A stretch of DNA of 64,000 nt from Candidatus Poribacteria bacterium. GTDB taxonomy: Bacteria; Poribacteria; WGA-4E; WGA-3G. The notes under the pieces were generated by a model that saw nothing but the letters and a program-made list of their open reading frames with translations, did not search any database and was not told where the DNA came from. How positions within the stretch are numbered: position 1 is the stretch's first letter; every line of letters starts with the position of its first letter. The stretch spans positions 1-64,000 of the forward strand of contig JAJEGI010000005.1 in NCBI GenBank assembly GCA_022819945.1, in the 5' to 3' direction. Of the stretch, positions 33,016 through 54,406 are shown one piece after another. The position numbers and the translations under genes were made by a program.

Positions 33016-36000
33016 ATGATAACAAAAAATAACCTTAAAGACTTACTCAAAACCTTAGACTTCACGGAGGAAGGGAACACCTTCCAAAAATCGATTGGTG
33101 AAGCCGATTTAAAAGTTGACTTTGAGAAAAAAGAAATAATTTACCCTGAAGATAAAGGGCTAAAGGTCAACGAACGACAAACCTGTAATCTCTCACAGAA
33201 CGAGAATTTTGTTGTGTTTGAGTGTGTCCATCGGTTATTGGAAAAAGGTTATAAGCCTGAACATTTAGAACTTGAACGACCCTACAGAATTGGACATAGT
33301 GCAAGCGGCGGACGTGCCGATATATTGGTTAAAGATCAAGAAAATAATCCGTTGCTAATTATTGAGTGCAAAACAGCAGGAGATGAATTTGATAAGGCAT
33401 GGGACGACACTCGTCAAGATGGAGGGCAGTTGTTTAGTTATGTCCACCAAGAGTCCCAAACCCAATACCTCTGCCTTTATGCTTCCAGTTTCTTTAAAAA
33501 TGAACTAAATTTTGAATACAAACTAATTCCGCACCTTGACAATCCGCAAATTTTATCAGAAGATACAACACAACTCTCCTTTGAAAAGGCAAGCAAAGCC
33601 GAACACCGCTTCGCCGCTTGGCGTGATACTTACAAATTGGAATTCACAGAAGTCGGTATTTTTGAAGGAAATATTCAAGCCTATCAGATCGGTAAGAACA
33701 ACTATACCCTCGCTGAGGACACCAAACCCATCGGCATTATTGAAAAAGATAGTAAATACCACGACTTCCGAACCATTTTAAGAAAGCACAATATTGCCAG
33801 ACGTGAAAACGCCTTTGAGGTACTGGTCAACCTATTTCTATGCAAATTAGTTGACGAAGAAGAAAACAAAGATAACCTCAAATTTTATTGGAACGGGCCC
33901 GCTTCCGACAACTATTTCGATTTTGTTGATAGATTGCAAAACCTCTACCAAAGAGGGATGCATAAATTCCTGAACGAAGAAATTAGTTACATCAGCCGTG
34001 AACAAATTGACGAGGCATTTTGGCCCGTTAAAAATGACCTCAACGACACTCAGAAACAAATTCAAGAATATTTTACGGAGCTTAAATTTTTCTCTAACTC
34101 TGCGTTTTCCTTTTTGGACACCCACAACAAGGATTTATTTGAAAGAAACACTGCAGTCTTGTCAGAAGTAGTGCAAATGTGGCAAGGGTTACGACTCAAA
34201 ACGGATGAACAAAACCAATTTTTGGGCGATATGTTTGAGTTCTTTCTTGACAACGGTATCAAGCAATCCGAAGGTCAGTTTTTTACACCCCTGCCGATCT
34301 GCAAATTTATTGTTGCCTCCTTGCCGCTTGCTGAAAAAATTAGAGAGAACTCCGAACCAATTAAGGCAATTGATTACGCCTGCGGCTCTGGACATTTTTT
34401 GAATGAATATGCCTATCAAATAAAACCTTTGGTTGAAACACGGAACAGAACCTTAAGCAACTACTACACCCAAATTACTGGGGTAGAAAAAGAAGATCGC
34501 TTAGCAAAAGTCGCTAAAGTTGCTGCCTATATGCACGGACAAGAGCAGATTAAGATATTAGATGCTGACGCGCTCGCTTCTCACCCCGAAATTCAGCGGG
34601 AAAGTTTTGATGTCTTGGTAGCGAATCCGCCCTTTGCAGTGGAAGGCTTTTTGCAAACCTTGAGCGACACAGACAAAAATGAGTATAAACTCATTGAAGC
34701 CACAGGTGAAAATAGCAATACCAACAACATCGAATGCTTCTTTTTAGAAAGGATTCGTCACTTAATGGCACCGGACGGTCTGGTTGGCGTAATTGTTCCC
34801 CGCAGCATTTTGTCCAATACGGAAGCGGTTCACAACCGGACGCGTGAGATTCTGTTACAATTTTTTGATATAGTGAGTATTGCCGAACTGGGAAGTGGCA
34901 CCTTTGGCAAAACCGGGACCAATACAGTTGTGCTTTTTTTAAGACGGAAAAAGCGAAAACCAGAAGCCGCCGATCATTATCGCAATCGAGTAGAAGTCTT
35001 TTTTGCAGGTGATGATGAGAGTGAAAAATATTATCAAGATCACCACCTGATAAAAGCCTATTGCGATCATATTGATGTCTCTTATGAAGAATACATTAAG
35101 CTCTTTGGCCAAACCAGTCTTGAGTCAATTACCGAACTATTAGAATACGATATTTTCAATGATTATAAGCAAACCTTTAGTCAAAGTACAGAGATAAAAA
35201 ATCTGAAAAAATCCAATGTTTTCAAGAAAAAAACGCCAACGGGACAATCGGCAGAATTAGAGCACTGTTTCATCGCTTACCTACACACTTTAGAAAAAGA
35301 AAAACTTTACTACTTTATCCTTGCACACGAGCAAGAAAACGATGTGCTAATTGTCAATGCACCAGATGCCAATAAAGAACGAAAGCAATTTTTAGGCTAC
35401 GAATGGAGTGGACGTAAAGGTGATGAGGGCATTAAATACAATGGTGGCGATACTGTCAACGACATTATCACCCCTCTGTTTGATCCAAAGGATCTAAACA
35501 ATCATGGAAAAATAAACACAGCAATCAAACAAAACTTTAACGATGGAATCGTCAATCCACTACCCGAATACTGTCAGTATGCCAAGCTCACTGATATGTT
35601 GAATTTTAGCCGCGTAGACTTTGATAAAATCATTCACTTAAACCCTCAACAGATCATTAATATTGAAACGCAATGGCCATTGGTAAAGTTGGGAGAAGTT
35701 GTAGAAACTCAATATGGATACACGGCAAAAGCAGAAGATGAAGGAGATGTAAGGTATCTAAGAATCACTGACATTACAGAAGATGGAGAATTAAAAGATA
35801 CAGACAAAAAATATATCAATCCATCAGAGCAAATTATTCAAGATTATACCTTGAACCGGAATGACATCGTTATTGCTCGAAGTGGTAGCACAGGTAGGAT
35901 GTTGTTATATAAAGGTATTGACGAACATTTAATATTTGCTTCTTATCTGGTTAGACTAAAAGTGTCAAAGAAAATATTACCCGAATATATTTTCGCTTTT

Positions 36001-36768
36001 CATAAAACGACTGCTTATTGGCAACAAGTGGACGCATTGACAACGACATTAGCACAACCTAATTTAAACGCCGAGAAAATGAAACAAATAAAAATTCCCC
36101 TTCCACCACTTGAAGTGCAACAGCAGATTGTTAAAAAATGTGAGGCAGTAGATCAGGAAACAGATCAAGCCCGTCAAGCCATCACCATAGATAGACAAGA
36201 AATTGAGGAATTAGTCAGTTCCGTTGAAAAAGCATCAATGCTAAACCAAGTAGTTGACAAAATTTCTGACATTGTTGATCCACAGGAAGAAAAGGGCATC
36301 GTTTGCTATATTGGATTAGAAAATATTGAAAGCCAAACTGGCGTGTTGTTAGGAAACATCCAAACTGATTATTCCACCATAAAAAGTAATAAAAATGTAT
36401 TTCGTATAGGCGACATTTTATATGGCAAACTCAGACCGAACTTAAATAAAGTATTTTTGGCGAATATAGACGGAATCTGTTCGACTGACATATTAGTGCT
36501 TAGACCTAAAAACCCAAACTTGGCTACATTTTACAAACATTATTTTTTGTCTGAAGTGTTTAATTCTGAGGTGTTAACGACAGTCAGCGGTCAACAATTA
36601 CCCAGAACATCTTGGGAAAAAATAAATAGAATTTCTGTTCCCGAGCCTAATATTCAACAGCAGTTAGTGACAAAAATTGAGCAATTAGAAGCAAAAATCA
36701 CTGAAGCACAAGTCGTGATTGATAACGCCACAGAGCGTAAAAATGTCATTCTCAAAAAATATTTATAA
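33016..36768 (+). CDS. Single-chain restriction-modification enzyme (nuclease-methylase-two TRDs, type IIG-like)
   Basis: 1250 residues fuse three activities. An N-terminal PD-(D/E)xK nuclease of the HSDR_N_2 kind has GRADILV (Asp102) and LLIIECKT (Glu117, Lys119). An N6-adenine methylase follows, with motif I AIDYACGSGHF (about 452) and motif IV VANPPF (about 535). Two HsdS-type target recognition domains start at about 887 (WPLVKLGEVVETQYG) and 1092, each ending in IPLPPLEVQQQIV-like helices. There is no helicase motor and no separate hsdR/M/S gene. Two TRDs suggest a bipartite, BcgI/type IIB-like site. It is A+T-richer than its neighbours and is flanked by repeats, suggesting transfer. Confidence 0.88.
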   Translation: MITKNNLKDLLKTLDFTEEGNTFQKSIGEADLKVDFEKKEIIYPEDKGLKVNERQTCNLSQNENFVVFECVHRLLEKGYKPEHLELERPYRIGHSASGGRADILVKDQENNPLLIIECKTAGDEFDKAWDDTRQDGGQLFSYVHQESQTQYLCLYASSFFKNELNFEYKLIPHLDNPQILSEDTTQLSFEKASKAEHRFAAWRDTYKLEFTEVGIFEGNIQAYQIGKNNYTLAEDTKPIGIIEKDSKYHDFRTILRKHNIARRENAFEVLVNLFLCKLVDEEENKDNLKFYWNGPASDNYFDFVDRLQNLYQRGMHKFLNEEISYISREQIDEAFWPVKNDLNDTQKQIQEYFTELKFFSNSAFSFLDTHNKDLFERNTAVLSEVVQMWQGLRLKTDEQNQFLGDMFEFFLDNGIKQSEGQFFTPLPICKFIVASLPLAEKIRENSEPIKAIDYACGSGHFLNEYAYQIKPLVETRNRTLSNYYTQITGVEKEDRLAKVAKVAAYMHGQEQIKILDADALASHPEIQRESFDVLVANPPFAVEGFLQTLSDTDKNEYKLIEATGENSNTNNIECFFLERIRHLMAPDGLVGVIVPRSILSNTEAVHNRTREILLQFFDIVSIAELGSGTFGKTGTNTVVLFLRRKKRKPEAADHYRNRVEVFFAGDDESEKYYQDHHLIKAYCDHIDVSYEEYIKLFGQTSLESITELLEYDIFNDYKQTFSQSTEIKNLKKSNVFKKKTPTGQSAELEHCFIAYLHTLEKEKLYYFILAHEQENDVLIVNAPDANKERKQFLGYEWSGRKGDEGIKYNGGDTVNDIITPLFDPKDLNNHGKINTAIKQNFNDGIVNPLPEYCQYAKLTDMLNFSRVDFDKIIHLNPQQIINIETQWPLVKLGEVVETQYGYTAKAEDEGDVRYLRITDITEDGELKDTDKKYINPSEQIIQDYTLNRNDIVIARSGSTGRMLLYKGIDEHLIFASYLVRLKVSKKILPEYIFAFHKTTAYWQQVDALTTTLAQPNLNAEKMKQIKIPLPPLEVQQQIVKKCEAVDQETDQARQAITIDRQEIEELVSSVEKASMLNQVVDKISDIVDPQEEKGIVCYIGLENIESQTGVLLGNIQTDYSTIKSNKNVFRIGDILYGKLRPNLNKVFLANIDGICSTDILVLRPKNPNLATFYKHYFLSEVFNSEVLTTVSGQQLPRTSWEKINRISVPEPNIQQQLVTKIEQLEAKITEAQVVIDNATERKNVILKKYL

Positions 36769-47155: not shown

Positions 47156-48823
47156 ATGAAAACTTTCAACAACAAAATCACGCTCAATCTTGACAATGAG
47201 ACAGAGGTGTCCGTCAAAGGCTTTATTGCGCCGATTGCGCACACCGCAGGTAACTTCCATAAAAGATGGGATGCTTTGGCGAACTTGCGAGCTGCAGAAC
47301 CAGAAAAGCAGTATGCTGCTGCCGTTTTTCACGATTTTCTTCCATCTGAAGCCGTTTCGGTGGGCGAGTGTTGGGAAATTCAAGAAGCCGGTGTCCAAGA
47401 ATTGCTGGAACAGCTGCATCCCAACGCCTCTCTCGACATGCGTGTGGAGATGTACGGCTTGGAAGAGTGTAAAGGTCTCCGGGCATGTCTACGCGCTTAC
47501 AACGATCAATTGGTTCACATCGTGTTTCGTATCCATGCGGAATTTGCCTTAGAGGACGGTTGGTTCACACCTTCGCAGTTCGCTGGACATCTCGTTATAG
47601 ATCGTAACCAAAAGGCTGTCGTATTTTTTCAGATGTACGTCCCTCCAGGCACGCTAAACTTTGACGTTCATTGGGAAACGACGTTAGAAGGTTGGGACGC
47701 TCCGAGATGGATTACAGATTGCGGTTATTGCTCGCAAATGGAGCTCTGGACTGGGTCAGAAGACGCTCTAAAAGATACCGAATTCACAGAAGCAATCACG
47801 CAAGAAGAAGCCGAACGTCTCTTAATCCAGCGATTCTACAAATCGCAGCGCATTAACTGGGTATCGTTAGCGGAAGCATTGGAGATGACACAGGCACAAC
47901 AGAAGCCCGTTCATGTCATTTCACTTGATGGTCCGCTCTTTGATGAAGCCTGCTGAGGGAGCGGTAAAAGCCTGAGAGCAGGTGCTCTCTCTCATGACCG
48001 AGTCATTAAATTTTTGAACGAAAATTTTATCAATACATGGGTTTCTAATTTTGAATTTGGCAGGAAGCCAAGCGCTAGAGAATATCTTGCCAAAAGATAC
48101 GCGAATGAATCTAAAGCGTTTGACACTACCCACCCCTTAGCAGAAGCGATCAAAAAGGGTTGGCACGAACGCTCACCTGTGGACTGTATCGTTATATCGC
48201 CTGACTTTGAATTGAAAGGCAAACTCGCTTTGAATAAATACCTCTTCAACGGTCGCGGCTTAGAGGGTGGCAGAACAGCAGCAGAAAATTACCGACTGTT
48301 CCTCATTGAAGCCTTAGAAGGGAAATACCCCGGATTCAGTCCTGATAACGCTTTCGCTTATCTATTAGGTGAGGAAGAGGGGACCCCTGAACAGGAGAGT
48401 CCTTTCAAACCTTTCTTAACAGGCTTGGAGGTTGTCCTCAACTCTACACAGCCTACGTTGGAAGTATTGGATGTTATTCAGACGCTGGAGGTCGGTTCTC
48501 AGGATTCTACTATCGTAACAATTGATGCCACTGCCTTTGAAAACGGAGGGATACTGACCCTTGATATCCGTGTGGGGAGTGCCGAACTTGCAGGTTCTTT
48601 CTATTTGTACGATAGCGACACTGAATTTCCGTCGGAACGCGGGCTGCGCTACTATCATTCGTTTGCCAGTGCGACGGACATTTCGTCCGGTGGAACGGCA
48701 CAAATTACGTATCCTTTCTACCGAGGTCAAGTTTTTAAACTCGTAATCGCAGCCGCCGAACTGGTAGATAAGAAAGAGCATGTCAATGCCTTTCAGGCGA
48801 GAATTTCTGTGGCAGAAAACTAA
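47156..48823 (+). CDS. Predicted selenoprotein, tandem copy 1 (Trx-7-like with Cys-Sec)
   Basis: 555 codons with one in-frame TGA at 47954-47956 (residue 267). The frame is open on both sides and the TGA context AC-U-GSGKSLRAG falls at the active-site turn of a thioredoxin-7-like fold: KPVHVISLDG (strand), FDEACU (loop), VIKFLNENFINTWV (helix, strand) and PVDCIVISPDFEL (cis-Pro strand). Residues 1-235 are a novel beta-rich domain (FRIHAEFALEDGWFTPSQFAGHLVID). Residues 425-555 hold one copy of the C-terminal domain. A TTG start for the downstream half has no ribosome site. The gene begins 3 nt after the IMP dehydrogenase stop, and copy 2 starts one base after it. Confidence 0.8.
47974..47989 (+). 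promoter_or_regulatory. SECIS-like hairpin, copy 1
   Basis: GAGAGC-AGGT-GCTCTC, a perfect 6-bp stem with loop AGGT, as in the fdhF-type apical loop. The loop starts 24 nt after the UGA. Confidence 0.7.
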
Positions 48824-48824
48824 A

Positions 48825-50390
48825 ATGAAAACGAACCCAAACAAAATCACACTCAATCTTAACAATAACGCGGAAGTCAACGTCAACGGTTTCATCGCGC
48901 CGATTGAATACACGCAACGCAACTACCACGTGGATTGGGACGAATTGGCGAATCTAAAGGCTGCTGAACCAGAGAAGCAGTATCCTGCCTCCGTTTTTCA
49001 AGCATTTCTGCCACCGGAGTCGGTTTCTGTGGGTGACTGCTGGCAGATTGAAGAAGAAGGGACATTAACACTGCTGCGACAACTCAGTCCAAATCCACAA
49101 TTGGAGTTGGAAGTTGGTGGAGTGGATTCTTACGGTTTGTGGGCATGTCTACGCGCCTACAATGATGCGTTTGCTGAGATTCTGTTTCGTATCCATGCGG
49201 AATTCGTTTTAAAAAAAGGTTGGTTTGCGCCATCGCAGTTTGCCGGACATCTGGTTATTGATCGGGTCGAAAAGAGAGTTGCCGCCTTCAAGATGCACGT
49301 TCCAGAAGCCACACTGAACTTTGATGTACGTTGGAGGATATTTGGAGATAAGCGCCGCGCCGCTGGCATCGGTTTTTGCCCGCAAATGGAACTCTGTACC
49401 GAGGCACAAGATGTCTTGCAAGATGCTAAATTCACAGAAGCCATCACCAAAGCGGAAGCATTGCATGCACTGATGTTGCGTTTTTACAAGGCGGCGCAAA
49501 TTAACTGGGTATCGCTGGAAGAAGCCTTGAAGATGGCACCCGAACAACAGAAACCGATCCATGCCATCTCGATAAATGGACCGCTCTTGGACGAATCCTG
49601 CTGAGGGAGTGGCAAAACCCTGAGAGCAGGTGCTCTCTCTGATGATCAAAACATTGAATTCTTGAACGATAATTTCATCAATACTTGGGTAGGCAATGCT
49701 GAATTAGGACGTAGCCCTGGCTTGCGGGAACCGATTGCCAAAAGACGCGAACGTGAAGGTAAGACGTTTGACACAACGCACCCCTTGGCACAAGTGATTA
49801 TCAAGGGATGGAAGACCGGATCCAAAAAAGGGTCGCCGGTGGATTGTTTCGTCATATCACCTGATTTTGAACTGATGGGCAGACTGCTTGTCAATGAATT
49901 CTTCGACGACAATTGGAATAAATTTAAACTCCGAGACGAGGAGAGTTACCTTATATTTCTTAAGGAAGCTTTAGACGGAAAGCAGCCTGGGTTGGGTAAT
50001 ATCATTCTGACCAGCGAGGTGCCTTCTCAAGATGTTTTTGATGTTTTCCGTACACCAATAGTTGGTTACCAAGATTACACCGTGGTTGTCATTGATACAA
50101 GAGCGTTTGAGAAGGACGGCACGCTAACTATTGATATTGAGACCGGTAGAGCTGATGCGGAAGGGTGCTTCTATTTGGTTGATGGTAACGACGACCTCCC
50201 TACAGCAGAAAGAGTGACTAAACACATGGTACTTGCTATGAAGTGGCTCGAACCCGATGAGACAGGGCAACTCACGCATCGTTTTGACCGAGGTCAGTTT
50301 TTTAAGTTGGGTGCTACCGGAGTTCACAGTCGGAGTGAGAAAGGCAGCACCAATGCTTTTAAGGCAAAAATTTCTGTAGAGGAGAATTAA
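48825..50390 (+). CDS. Predicted selenoprotein, tandem copy 2
   Basis: 521 codons, in-frame TGA at 49602-49604 (residue 260, context ESC-U-GSGKTLRAG). The layout is as in copy 1: N-terminal domain (GFIAPIEYTQRNYHVDWDEL, GWFAPSQFAGHLVID), thioredoxin-like core (KPIHAISINGPLLDESCU, EFLNDNFINTWVGN, PVDCFVISPDFELMG) and one C-terminal beta domain (VVVIDTRAFEKDGTLTIDIE). Here the residue before Cys is Ser instead of Ala. The start at 48825 lies one base after the stop of copy 1 (TAAAATG) and the next copy starts one base after this stop. Confidence 0.8.
49622..49637 (+). promoter_or_regulatory. SECIS-like hairpin, copy 2
   Basis: The stem is identical to copy 1 (GAGAGC-AGGT-GCTCTC), loop starting 24 nt after the UGA. 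Confidence 0.7.
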
Positions 50391-50391
50391 A

Positions 50392-52365
50392 ATGGAAACA
50401 TTATCAAACCCAATTACACTCAAGCTTGATAGAGAAGCAGAAATCAACGTCAAAGGCTTCATTGCGCCGATTGAACATACAATAAACAACTTCCACGTTG
50501 AGTGGGACGCATTGGCGAATCTACGTGTCGCTGAACCCGAAAAATATCATTCTACATCGGTTTTTCAGTCTTTTCTCCCAACGCAATCGGTTTCAGTCGG
50601 TGAATGCTGGCGGATTCAGGAAGAGGGTGTAACGGAATTGCTCCAGCAATTGCATCCGAATCCAAATTTAGATATAAGCATCAATGCCAGTGATTCATGC
50701 GGGTTATGGGCATGCCTGCGGGCGTACAACGATCAATTCGCCGACATTGTGTTTCGGATTCATGCGGAGTTTAAGTTTGAAGATGGCAGGTTTACGCCGT
50801 CGCAATTTACGGGACATCTTGTCGTTGACCGAACTGGAGAGAAGGTTGCTTTCTTTCAGATGTATGTCCCTGAGGGTCCAATAAACTTTGATGTTAGTTG
50901 GAATTCTATTATCGATTCCGGTCTTTGCCCGCAGATGGAACTCCGTGTCGGAACACAGACTCCAGTCCGAGATGCCGAAAGCAAAGCGCTGTCGTTTAAA
51001 TTCACAGGCGATTCCATTACCCAAGAAGAAGCGGAACGCATCCTGATACAGCGTTTCTATAAATCAGAACAAATTAACTGGGTACCGCCGGAGCAGGCGT
51101 TAGAAATAGCACAAGCACAACAGAAACCGCTTCATGTGATCTCAATAGATGGACCGCTCGCTGATGAGGCGTGCTGAGGGAGCGGCAAAAGTCTGAGGGC
51201 AGGTGTCCTCGCTTATGATGAAACTATTGAATTCTTGAACGAGAACTTTATTAATGTCTGGGTGTCGAATGTTGTATTAGAGCGAACATCCGTAATGCGT
51301 GACTATGCGGCAGAGAGATTTGAAGCCGGATCCAGGGCACTGTTTAATAGGGCACATCCTTTGGCAGAAGCCGTTATGAAGGGGTGGAAAGAACATTCGC
51401 CGGTAGACTGTTTGATTATCTCGCCAGATTCTGAATTGATGGGCAGACAACTCGTCAATGAACTCCATGAAGACAGTAATCGTAGAGGACTCGCATCGTA
51501 TGAATATTATCTGACATTCCTCAAGCAATCTCTGGGCGGGAAGCAACCCGGATTGGGGAACCTCATTCTTACCAGAGAATCTGCTTCAGAAGAGGTATTG
51601 GACGTTTTTCGGACACCAACAGTCGGTTATCAAGACTATACCGTTGTTGTGATTGATACCACGGACTTTGAAAACGGTGGCACACTCACTATTGACATTG
51701 AAGTTGGCAGAGATGAAGGTGAAGGTGTGTTCTATCTGTTTGACGGTGATAGCGAACTTTCCACAGATAAAAAAACGCCTAAAGACATGCTTGCCCGGAC
51801 ATGGATTGGAGCCGGTGACACAAGGGAGATCAGACATCGTTTCGATCGCGGTCAACTTTTTAAGTTGGGTGCTACCGGATATTGGGATAGAGAGGAACCG
51901 TGTGTCAACGCTTTTCGCGCCACAGTTTCCGTACAGAAAAATTTAAATGAAGGCACTTCAGGCGCACCTTCAACTGGCTTGCGTGTTGTACTCGACAGTA
52001 CGCAATCGTCACCGGAAATATTGGATGTTTTTCGCGCACCCGGAAACGGCTACCAAGATTACACTGTCGTCAATATCGATACAACAGCGTTTGAAGCCGG
52101 TGGCACGCTTAGTATCTATATCCAGGTCGGGAGTGCGGATGCTGCCGGTTCGTTTGACTTGTTTGACAGCGACGCGGAGCTCCCGACAGAAGGGATACCG
52201 GAGGCACTCGTCTCGGCGTGGGGTATTAAACCGAATACAGCGACAACAATCATGCATCGTTTTGCGCGAGGCGAAGTTTTTAAACTCGGTGCCACCGGGG
52301 ATTGGTTCGCCGAGAGAGGGAACACAAATGCCTTTCACGCAAAAATTTCTGTAGAGGAAGATTGA
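50392..52365 (+). CDS. Predicted selenoprotein, tandem copy 3 (two C-terminal domains)
   Basis: 657 codons, in-frame TGA at 51175-51177 (residue 262, context EAC-U-GSGKSLRAG). The N-terminal domain and thioredoxin-like core match the other copies. The C-terminal beta domain is present twice: first around VLDVFRTPTVGYQDYTVV and again after a short Ser/Gly/Ala linker at LDVFRAPGNGYQDYTVV, which explains the extra 135 residues. The gene's own stop is TGA (52363-52365), so within one gene TGA must be read both as amino acid and as stop. This is what a SECIS-dependent system does. Confidence 0.8.
51195..51210 (+). promoter_or_regulatory. SECIS-like hairpin, copy 3 (with compensatory change)
   Basis: GAGGGC-AGGT-GTCCTC. 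Relative to copy 1 an A-U pair became G-C and a G-C pair became G-U, keeping the stem. The loop starts 24 nt after the UGA. Confidence 0.75.
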
Positions 52366-52366
52366 A

Positions 52367-54406
52367 ATGGATACTTTAGGAAACAAAATCACACTCAAAC
52401 TTGATAGAGAAACAGAAGTCAACGTCAAAGGTTTCATCGCACCGATTGAATACACACAATATAACTTTCATGTGGAATGGGACGAGTTGGCGAACTTTCG
52501 GGTTGCTGAACCGGAGAAGCGGTCTCCTACATCCGTTTTTCAAGCGTTTCTCCCATCGGAACCGGTTGCGGTGGGAGAATGCTGGGAGATTCAAGAAGAA
52601 GGCGCGCTAACGCTACTGAAACAACTGCATCCTAATCCACGCCTGAAGCTGACCATTGACTCAGGGGATTCGTATGGGTTGTGGGCATGCCTACGCGCTT
52701 ACAATGATGGACTCGCTGAAATTATGTTCCGTATCCACGCAGAATTCATCATGAAGAGCGGTAAGTTCACTCCGTCCCAATTTGCCGGGCATCTGGTTAT
52801 TGATCGACTCCGAGAGAAGGTCGTTTCCTTCAAGATGTATGTGCCGCAGACGACAATTAACTTCGATGCGGGTTGGACACGAGACGAGGGAACCGCTGCG
52901 GAGATCGGCTTTTGTCCGAAGATGGAACTTTCTACTGGCACCCCACCGCATGATGCCGAAAGCGAAGTGCTGTCGTTTAAATTCGCCGCGTCAATTACGC
53001 AAGAAGCAGCCGAACGCGCACTGTCCTCACGTTTCTACAAATTTCAAAAAATCAATTGGGTATCGCTGGAGGAAGCGTTGGAGCTGGCTCCCGCAGAACA
53101 GAAACCGATCCATGTCATCTCCGTGGACGGACCGCTCTTTGATGAAGCATGCTGAGGGACTGGTAAAATCCTGAGGGCAGTTGAGCTCTCCAAAGATCAA
53201 ATTATCGAATTTTTGAACGAAAACTTCATTAACGCGTGGGTACCTAACTCTGAATTAGGGAGAACACCGAGTTTGCGAGAACCGATTACGAAACGACGTG
53301 AACGCGAAGGGAAGACATTCGACACAAGTCACGCCTTGGCACAAGCGATTATGAAAGGTTGGAAAAAAGGCTCACCGGTAGATTGTTTGGTTATCTCGCC
53401 AGAGTTTGAAGTGATGGGCGGCATAGACTACAATTTTTTCCCCGAATGTTTGGGCGAGTTTGAGAGCCGTGGAGAGGCTTACCTGTTTTTTCTCAAAGCA
53501 TCCATGGAAGGAAAACGTCCCGGATTGGGGACCCTTGTCCTCACGCCAGAACAACCTTCACAAGAAGTGGTAGACACCTTTCGCAGCCCGGTAGCAGCGC
53601 ATCAGGACTATACTGTTGTCTATATTGACACCACGGCGTTTGAAGCGGGTGGCACACTCACTGCCGACATCCAAGTCGGTAGAGATAACGGAATAGGGAT
53701 TTTCCATCTCCTCGATGGAGACAAAAAACTTCCGACAGAAAAAGCACCTGATGGCATCGACCCCGAAGAATGGAACGACCAAGACAGTGACGAATATGAG
53801 AAGGCACTCGGCGCACTGGCGAAAGTCTGGGGGATATTCCCCGGTGAAACTGGACATATTATGTATCCGTTTGATCGGGGTCAACGCTTTAAATTGTGTG
53901 CGACTGGCGACCAATGGGGTGGGATCGGCGACATAAACGCTTTTGTCGCAAAAATTCGGGTGGAATCCTTAGAAGAGAGACCTATTGGAACCTCACAAAC
54001 GCCATTAAACGAGAGCAGCGTTTTACTCAATGCCGAAAAGTCTAAGCAAGAAGTTTTGCTCAATTTTCGCGCACCCGGAAGAGACTACCAAGATTACACT
54101 GTTGTCAATATTGATACCACGGCCTTTGAAGGTGGTGGCGTGCTAACTGTTGATATCCGGGTTGGGAACACAGACGCATCCGGTTCGTTTGACCTCTTTG
54201 ATAGCGATACTGAACTTCCGACAGAAGGGATCCCTGACGAAGCACTCGCCTCGGCGTGGGGCATTAAACCCGGTACATCAGGGACAATCACCCATCGTTT
54301 TGAGCGGGGCACCGTCTTTAAACTGGGTGCCACTGGCGACTGGTTCAGTAAAAAAGGGGACATAAACGTTTTTGTCGCAAAAATCTCTGTAGAAGCAGCA
54401 GACTGA
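52367..54406 (+). CDS. Predicted selenoprotein, tandem copy 4 (two C-terminal domains)
   Basis: 679 codons, in-frame TGA at 53153-53155 (residue 263, context EAC-U-GTGKILRAV). It is the most diverged copy around the Sec site, yet UGA and hairpin are retained. The domain order equals copy 3: N-terminal domain, thioredoxin-like core (EFLNENFINAWVPN, PVDCLVISPEFEVMG) and two beta domains. The first has an extra acidic insert (EEWNDQDSDEYEKA), and the linker is about 20 residues. It starts one base after copy 3 and ends the array; a long inverted repeat follows. Confidence 0.8.
53173..53190 (+). promoter_or_regulatory. SECIS-like hairpin, copy 4
   Basis: GAGGGC-AGTTGA-GCTCTC, a 6-bp stem with one G-U pair at the covarying position and a slightly larger loop. 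The loop starts 24 nt after the UGA. Confidence 0.65.

Follow-up and report, generated by a model that had tools for sequence, protein, structure and literature searches.

A tandem array of predicted selenoprotein genes in Candidatus Poribacteria with adjacent Cys-Sec in a thioredoxin-like core

Selenoproteins in which selenocysteine (Sec) lies in the active site of a thioredoxin fold are already catalogued, among them Sec-Trx, the thiol:disulfide interchange protein and Trx7/PDZ (NF041199), and those in the May 2026 review, which lists 119 selenoprotein families and subfamilies, use UxxC or CxxU and have a bacterial SECIS (PMC13188914). Several selenoprotein genes can also share an operon, as in SAO (six genes) and Tso (three), both of which mix unrelated families (PMC13188914). 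Mammalian thioredoxin reductase carries a C-terminal GCUG redox centre on the flexible tail of a flavoenzyme.

The family described here shares with the catalogued thioredoxin-fold proteins a Sec in the redox site of the fold and decoding through a bacterial SECIS, but its motif is C-U-x-x-G, which meets neither the canonical CxxC nor the Sec forms UxxC and CxxU, no Cys form has been found and its genes occur in multi-copy tandem arrays. Like SAO and Tso it brings several selenoprotein genes together, whereas here a single family is repeated, in 4 or 8 copies. With GCUG it has in common an adjacent Cys-Sec followed by Gly, however this pair would lie inside a thioredoxin fold rather than in a tail, and the likeness is one of analogy and not homology. 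The core fold, the KPI...LNxNF framework and the active site on helix 1 are those of the Thioredoxin_7, Thioredox_DsbH (DUF255) and DsbH-type thioredoxins, from which the family differs in having C-U-x-x-G for CxxC, extra loop residues before the motif and two extra domains; it does not reach the Pfam gathering cut-off for Thioredoxin_7 or Thioredox_DsbH (best E 0.086 and 0.19). No model in Pfam or NCBIfam 20.0 (June 2026) matches the family above cut-off, and no entry in Table 1 of PMC13188914 has a matching architecture or motif, so that the unfamiliarity of the family to the preliminary description, which was made before any database search, held within these three catalogues. Weak Pfam and NCBIfam matches to BrnA, a lasso peptide and IcmX were judged to be chance. 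No paper joining Poribacteria and selenoprotein was found in the open-access literature searched, and it is likely that the family is absent from current selenoprotein catalogues, with the proviso that the full protein database and the subscription literature lay outside our search.

The array runs from 47156 to 54406 on the forward strand of the window, by which we mean the whole 64,000-nucleotide stretch of DNA analysed, taken from contig C176 of a 5.8 Mb, 93.5% complete MAG of Candidatus Poribacteria type, a sponge-associated bacterium. Copy 1 (47156-48823, 555 aa) has its in-frame TGA at 47954-47956 (Sec267) and one C-terminal module; copy 2 (48825-50390, 521 aa) has it at 49602-49604 (Sec260); copy 3 (50392-52365, 657 aa) at 51175-51177 (Sec262) and copy 4 (52367-54406, 679 aa) at 53153-53155 (Sec263), the last two having two C-terminal modules each, of which the second lies at 51982-52359 and 54014-54394 respectively. 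The contexts are ACUGSGK, SCUGSGK, ACUGSGK and ACUGTGK, of the general form [AS]C-U-G[ST]GK, and each paralogue has just one such TGA, with the frame open before and after it. When the frames were re-read at all four sites the preliminary description was borne out as to the residues (267, 260, 262 and 263), the open flanking frames and the use of TGA as a normal stop; copies 3 and 4 themselves end in TGA, which therefore still functions as a stop. The start of copy 2 was corrected to 48825, in agreement with residue 260, the raw ORF being able to open at 48780.

Adjacent genes are separated by 1-nt gaps, and the final codons of each preceding gene (GTAGAGGAG in ISVEEN) are able to supply a ribosome site for the next. 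None of the window copies has a signal peptide. Pairwise identity among the four is only ~55% and they sit in separate clades, each with orthologues from other genomes, from which it follows that the array is old.

Searched with a profile built from the four proteins, 65 of the phylum's 85 genomes give matches, up to 17 in one genome, and nearly all of these genomes fall in three families of a single order. Almost all listed matches contain a single internal TGA; where a few show extra stops, these probably belong to the tail of the gene before. When 84,980 species genomes were scanned with two peptide patterns, which reach near relatives only, Candidatus Poribacteria alone was returned, and a broader profile run against 387 genomes (~300 of them from outside the phylum) gave outside it merely three weak matches to ordinary thioredoxins; the family would therefore seem to be restricted to Poribacteria. 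The genome that carries the array has ten Sec genes of the family, four in the window, four on contig C165, one on C17 and one split between C181 and C40. At the orthologous locus of another genome (L190; G071:C38:56000-75500) there are eight tandem copies where the window has four, flanked on one side by a gene of the size of IMP dehydrogenase and, downstream, by one on the reverse strand, the two matching the IMP dehydrogenase and polysaccharide deacetylase genes of the window, so copy number varies strongly between species. Where the preliminary description saw four genes only, the family thus proved to be much larger, reaching most genomes of one order and including secreted and lipoprotein branches.

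Among 261 distinct sequences that span the site, recovered from many Poribacteria, 257 have TGA, three GGA, one TCA and none a Cys codon. Homologues with UGA, one of the two kinds that had been proposed as worth looking for, are therefore abundant, and Cys at the Sec position is absent from all full-length homologues within this set (the full protein database was not searched); only distant thioredoxins have Cys at the aligned position. The Cys that precedes Sec is invariant in the family alignment, and its codon is TGC in 182 of 183 distinct genes. Purifying selection is equal on the two sides of the TGA (median dN/dS 0.16 upstream and 0.14 downstream) and this, together with TGA in 257 of 261 sequences, excludes a chance origin of the in-frame TGAs. 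The three GGA sequences represent two genes, one of which was seen in two overlapping loci, and the sense-codon genes are thus one with TCA (Ser) and two with GGA (Gly) (L109:1646-3238, L134 and L171; G062:C115). All keep the adjacent Cys and the downstream hairpin described below, and since the hairpin is retained a recent loss of Sec is suggested, which probably took place by point mutation without a Cys intermediate. One of these genomes (G062) was considered as a Sec-loss lineage, an idea that was rejected as TGA copies are kept in the same genome.

In nearly every copy of the family a hairpin lies 23 nt downstream of the TGA. It has a 6-bp stem, in which positions 21-26 pair with 31-36, and a loop of AGGU or AGUU in what we term V/A-class genes, a geometry that in the window is found on the forward strand at 47974-47989 in copy 1 (GAGAGC-AGGU-GCUCUC, -9.5 kcal/mol), 49622-49637 in copy 2 (-9.5 kcal/mol) and 51195-51210 in copy 3 (GAGGGC-AGGU-GUCCUC, -9.3 kcal/mol). 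Copy 4 (53173-53190, -8.4 kcal/mol) belongs to a Glu class (n=17, with Glu at the loop codon) in which the 3' arm is shifted by two bases and the loop is the 6-nt AGUUGA. All six main pairs of the stem are formed in nearly every V/A-class gene (each in 160-164 of 164), with compensatory change at pair 24/33, where G-C, A-U and G-U alternate, and the Glu class retains the stem, every position being paired in 16-17 of its 17 genes. Between +22 and +36 after the TGA the 183 distinct genes show hardly any synonymous variation: Arg codons in the hairpin are AGG or AGA in 183/183 (family background 0.27), Ala is GCA in 168/170 (0.35), Gly is GGT in 125/126 (0.36) and Leu is CTC in 178/183 (0.19). 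Over the 12 codons that follow the TGA the median dS is 0.22, against 0.58-0.68 elsewhere, and protein-preserving shuffles of synonymous codons give a mean MFE z of -1.85 against -0.21 in control windows. Spacing, stem and the three loops fit the published bacterial SECIS consensus (PMC13188914). Folding of 50-nt windows from the TGA had given unconvincing z-scores and alternative pairing; the compact hairpin is clear only with the family alignment.

The machinery for Sec insertion is encoded in the same MAG, with selA (610 bits), selB (342 bits), selD (362 bits) and, directly beside selB, a tRNA-Sec (76 bits, ARAGORN agreeing, anticodon TCA). The selD gene has one in-frame TGA of its own (L012:1501-2424) and probably encodes a selenoprotein itself. 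A search for these four genes was the first check proposed for the selenoprotein interpretation, and their presence supports it. There are a few genomes of the phylum that have the family and no selA above background, two of them at least 95% complete (G062 and G035); gaps in the MAGs are one possible cause. Presence or absence of selA across the phylum was set aside as a discriminating test, selA being nearly universal there.

AlphaFold2 models of copy 2 (pLDDT 90.0, pTM 0.79, no segment below 50) and of a natural core-only member (pLDDT 91.1, pTM 0.88) predict a three-domain architecture, which agrees with the thioredoxin-like core and two flanking domains first proposed. In copy 2 this comprises a beta-rich N-domain (48825-49424, ~residues 1-200), a DsbH/Trx_7-like core (49485-49979, ~residues 221-385) with C259-Sec260-G-S-G263, and a C-terminal jelly-roll module, a lectin/TNF-like beta-sandwich (49998-50387, ~residues 392-521), all on the forward strand; other copies have one or two such modules. 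The full model matches mostly jelly-roll sandwiches in the PDB (a TNF-like lectin, the BC2L-C lectin and PliG) together with 7tkv, whilst without the C-terminal module the best matches are the thioredoxins 7tkv (Thioredox_DsbH), 2lst, 2ju5 (DsbH) and 2kuc, and for this reason the sandwich matches are assigned to the module, whose predicted jelly-roll nature is likely, if inferred by subtraction. The N-domain has no Pfam match and no convincing PDB match by structure comparison. A sequence search of solved structures gave only a cohesin match that was judged to be chance. The AlphaFold2 models, Foldseek and hhalign all support the beta-alpha-beta-alpha-beta-beta-alpha fold of thioredoxins, in which the active site stands where helix 1 begins. 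Profile comparison by hhalign against three thioredoxins (probability 96-97) aligns SWCGYCK with SCUGSGK, so that Sec falls on the first Cys of CxxC and Gly on the second, while the additional Cys takes the place of Trp. WCGxC has thus become CUGSG: Sec stands for the nucleophilic Cys, Gly for the resolving one, and the Cys next to Sec does not vary. Pro338 of copy 2, at least 90% conserved and preceding strand 339-344, is a candidate for the cis-Pro position on the evidence of sequence and model only, its geometry not having been seen.

Taken as a whole, the likely reading is that the four array genes are authentic selenoprotein genes and that their product is a selenol oxidoreductase on a DsbH/Trx_7-type core, and the selenoprotein interpretation of the preliminary description is supported by the conserved UGA, the SECIS, the Sec machinery and purifying selection. 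These are established at the level of sequence, as are the alignment of Sec with the first Cys of CxxC and the predicted fold. SelB and tRNA-Sec would read the internal UGA as Sec, guided by the downstream hairpin, an inference that is very likely correct, though neither protein nor selenium data support it directly. From its position on the first Cys of CxxC, Sec would act as the attacking selenol. With the resolving Cys lost to Gly, the best candidate to resolve the intermediate would be the invariant preceding Cys, as a vicinal selenylsulfide; this rests on analogy with GCUG and could as well prove wrong as right. A thiol/disulfide or peroxide-reducing reaction is, on balance, favoured by the fold and by a redox fusion described below, there being no data on activity, substrate or partner. 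The N-domain and jelly-roll modules would probably select substrate or ligand, the paralogue arrays may provide several specificities, and leaderless copies such as those of the window may work in the cytoplasm with the signal-peptide and lipoprotein paralogues outside it.

The alternative that survives best accepts that Sec is inserted and proposes that the C-U pair binds a metal, an organometal or selenium, for detoxification or delivery, rather than performing redox catalysis. In its favour, the catalogued CU-motif families SaoL, HgcA and MbdU belong to organometallic or metal-binding systems (PMC13188914), toxic elements accumulate in sponges, and our first Foldseek search was topped by the copper-binding surface protein CorA, though with a TMt of only ~0.37. 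Against it stand the thioredoxin fold of the core, in which Sec occupies precisely the catalytic position, the fusion of one paralogue to a redox domain of AhpC/TlpA type and the loss of the CorA match when the core-only model is used, and we regard it as unlikely. A second alternative takes TGA for an ordinary stop and the two frames of each pair for separate, translationally coupled proteins. It draws on the observation that 74% of genes have, 61 nt beyond the TGA, a start-like codon, in most cases TTG. This codon, the sole recurrent one in the second half, is however ATG in just 6%, and a Shine-Dalgarno-like motif precedes it in 1/180 genes against 128/174 at the true start; separate halves with their own ribosome sites, which it had been said at the outset would refute the selenoprotein reading, were thus not borne out. 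Furthermore the confident predicted fold continues through the TGA, the downstream hairpin is kept and the three genes with a sense codon have one continuous frame, leaving this alternative all but excluded. Decoding of UGA as another amino acid (reassignment to Trp or Gly, or a suppressor tRNA), for which the GGA in two genes might speak, is likewise virtually ruled out by the normal termination of genes at TGA, including copies 3 and 4, by the presence of selA, selB, selD and tRNA-Sec, and by a conserved hairpin that fits the bacterial SECIS consensus (PMC13188914).

The selenoprotein reading carries the caveat that the Sec/Cys homologue pairs which usually support a new family are missing here. 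A bolder reading makes this a property of the family: a Sec-obligate thioredoxin-like lineage whose resolving Cys has moved beside Sec (CUxxG), and whose tandem arrays and interchangeable sugar-binding-like modules have diversified into cytoplasmic, exported and membrane-anchored selenoenzymes in which Cys cannot replace Sec. We put this forward tentatively and judge it less likely than not. SelA and SelB are enriched in sponge symbionts (PMC5649159), with no explanation given in the passage bearing on it, and were the bolder reading true it could account for part of that enrichment. Short of this, the family adds selenoproteins which automatic annotation can be expected to cut short at UGA, a new active-site arrangement with Cys-Sec instead of CxxC in a thioredoxin-like core, and, being apparently Sec-only, a system for asking why Cys is not tolerated. 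With as many as eight paralogous selenoprotein genes its arrays exceed the multi-family operons of the 2026 review (PMC13188914), and it offers a concrete reason for most Poribacteria to retain a costly Sec machinery, a point that has a bearing on the SelA/SelB enrichment of sponge symbionts (PMC5649159).

Paralogues outside the window vary in form. Those on C165 begin with sequences such as MKTLTIILLVLIVMSGQLYA or carry a lipobox-like LLSC, and the family probably occurs as leaderless, signal-peptide and lipoprotein forms, assigned by eye and hydropathy. The C165 locus (L187; G000:C165:60500-79702) has signal-peptide and lipoprotein members interleaved with WD40-repeat and ABC-2 permease genes, and 12 of the loci examined have WD40 neighbours. 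The C17 member (G000:C17; L188:3342-5345) carries a fused redox domain of AhpC/TlpA type whose site, WNSFC, is degenerate, and its neighbour (L188:448-2802) encodes a BlaR1-type M56 protein with a TlpA-like domain containing CGPC. A 514-aa protein (L036:1207-2751, G000:C10) shares the N-domain of the family, into which a long coiled coil is inserted, but lacks both the thioredoxin core and the TGA, and might help to assign the function of that domain.

The position of the array behind IMP dehydrogenase, also remarked on at first, holds in part. IMP dehydrogenase flanks 11 of the fetched loci, other loci having WD40, ABC-2 permease or leuC/D-like neighbours, and as it marks only one of several kinds of locus the adjacency is synteny and probably not function; a functional link was set aside. 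A phage or defence origin was rejected, with no relative in viral contigs and no PADLOC match. Elsewhere in the window, 33016-36768 encodes one polypeptide with HSDR_N-like, N6-methylase and specificity domains, likely, on sequence evidence alone, to be a fused type I or IIG-like restriction-modification enzyme, and at 41063-44705 genes for a NurA nuclease, a HerA helicase and a PIN-domain protein follow one another immediately upstream of those for HAD and IMP dehydrogenase.
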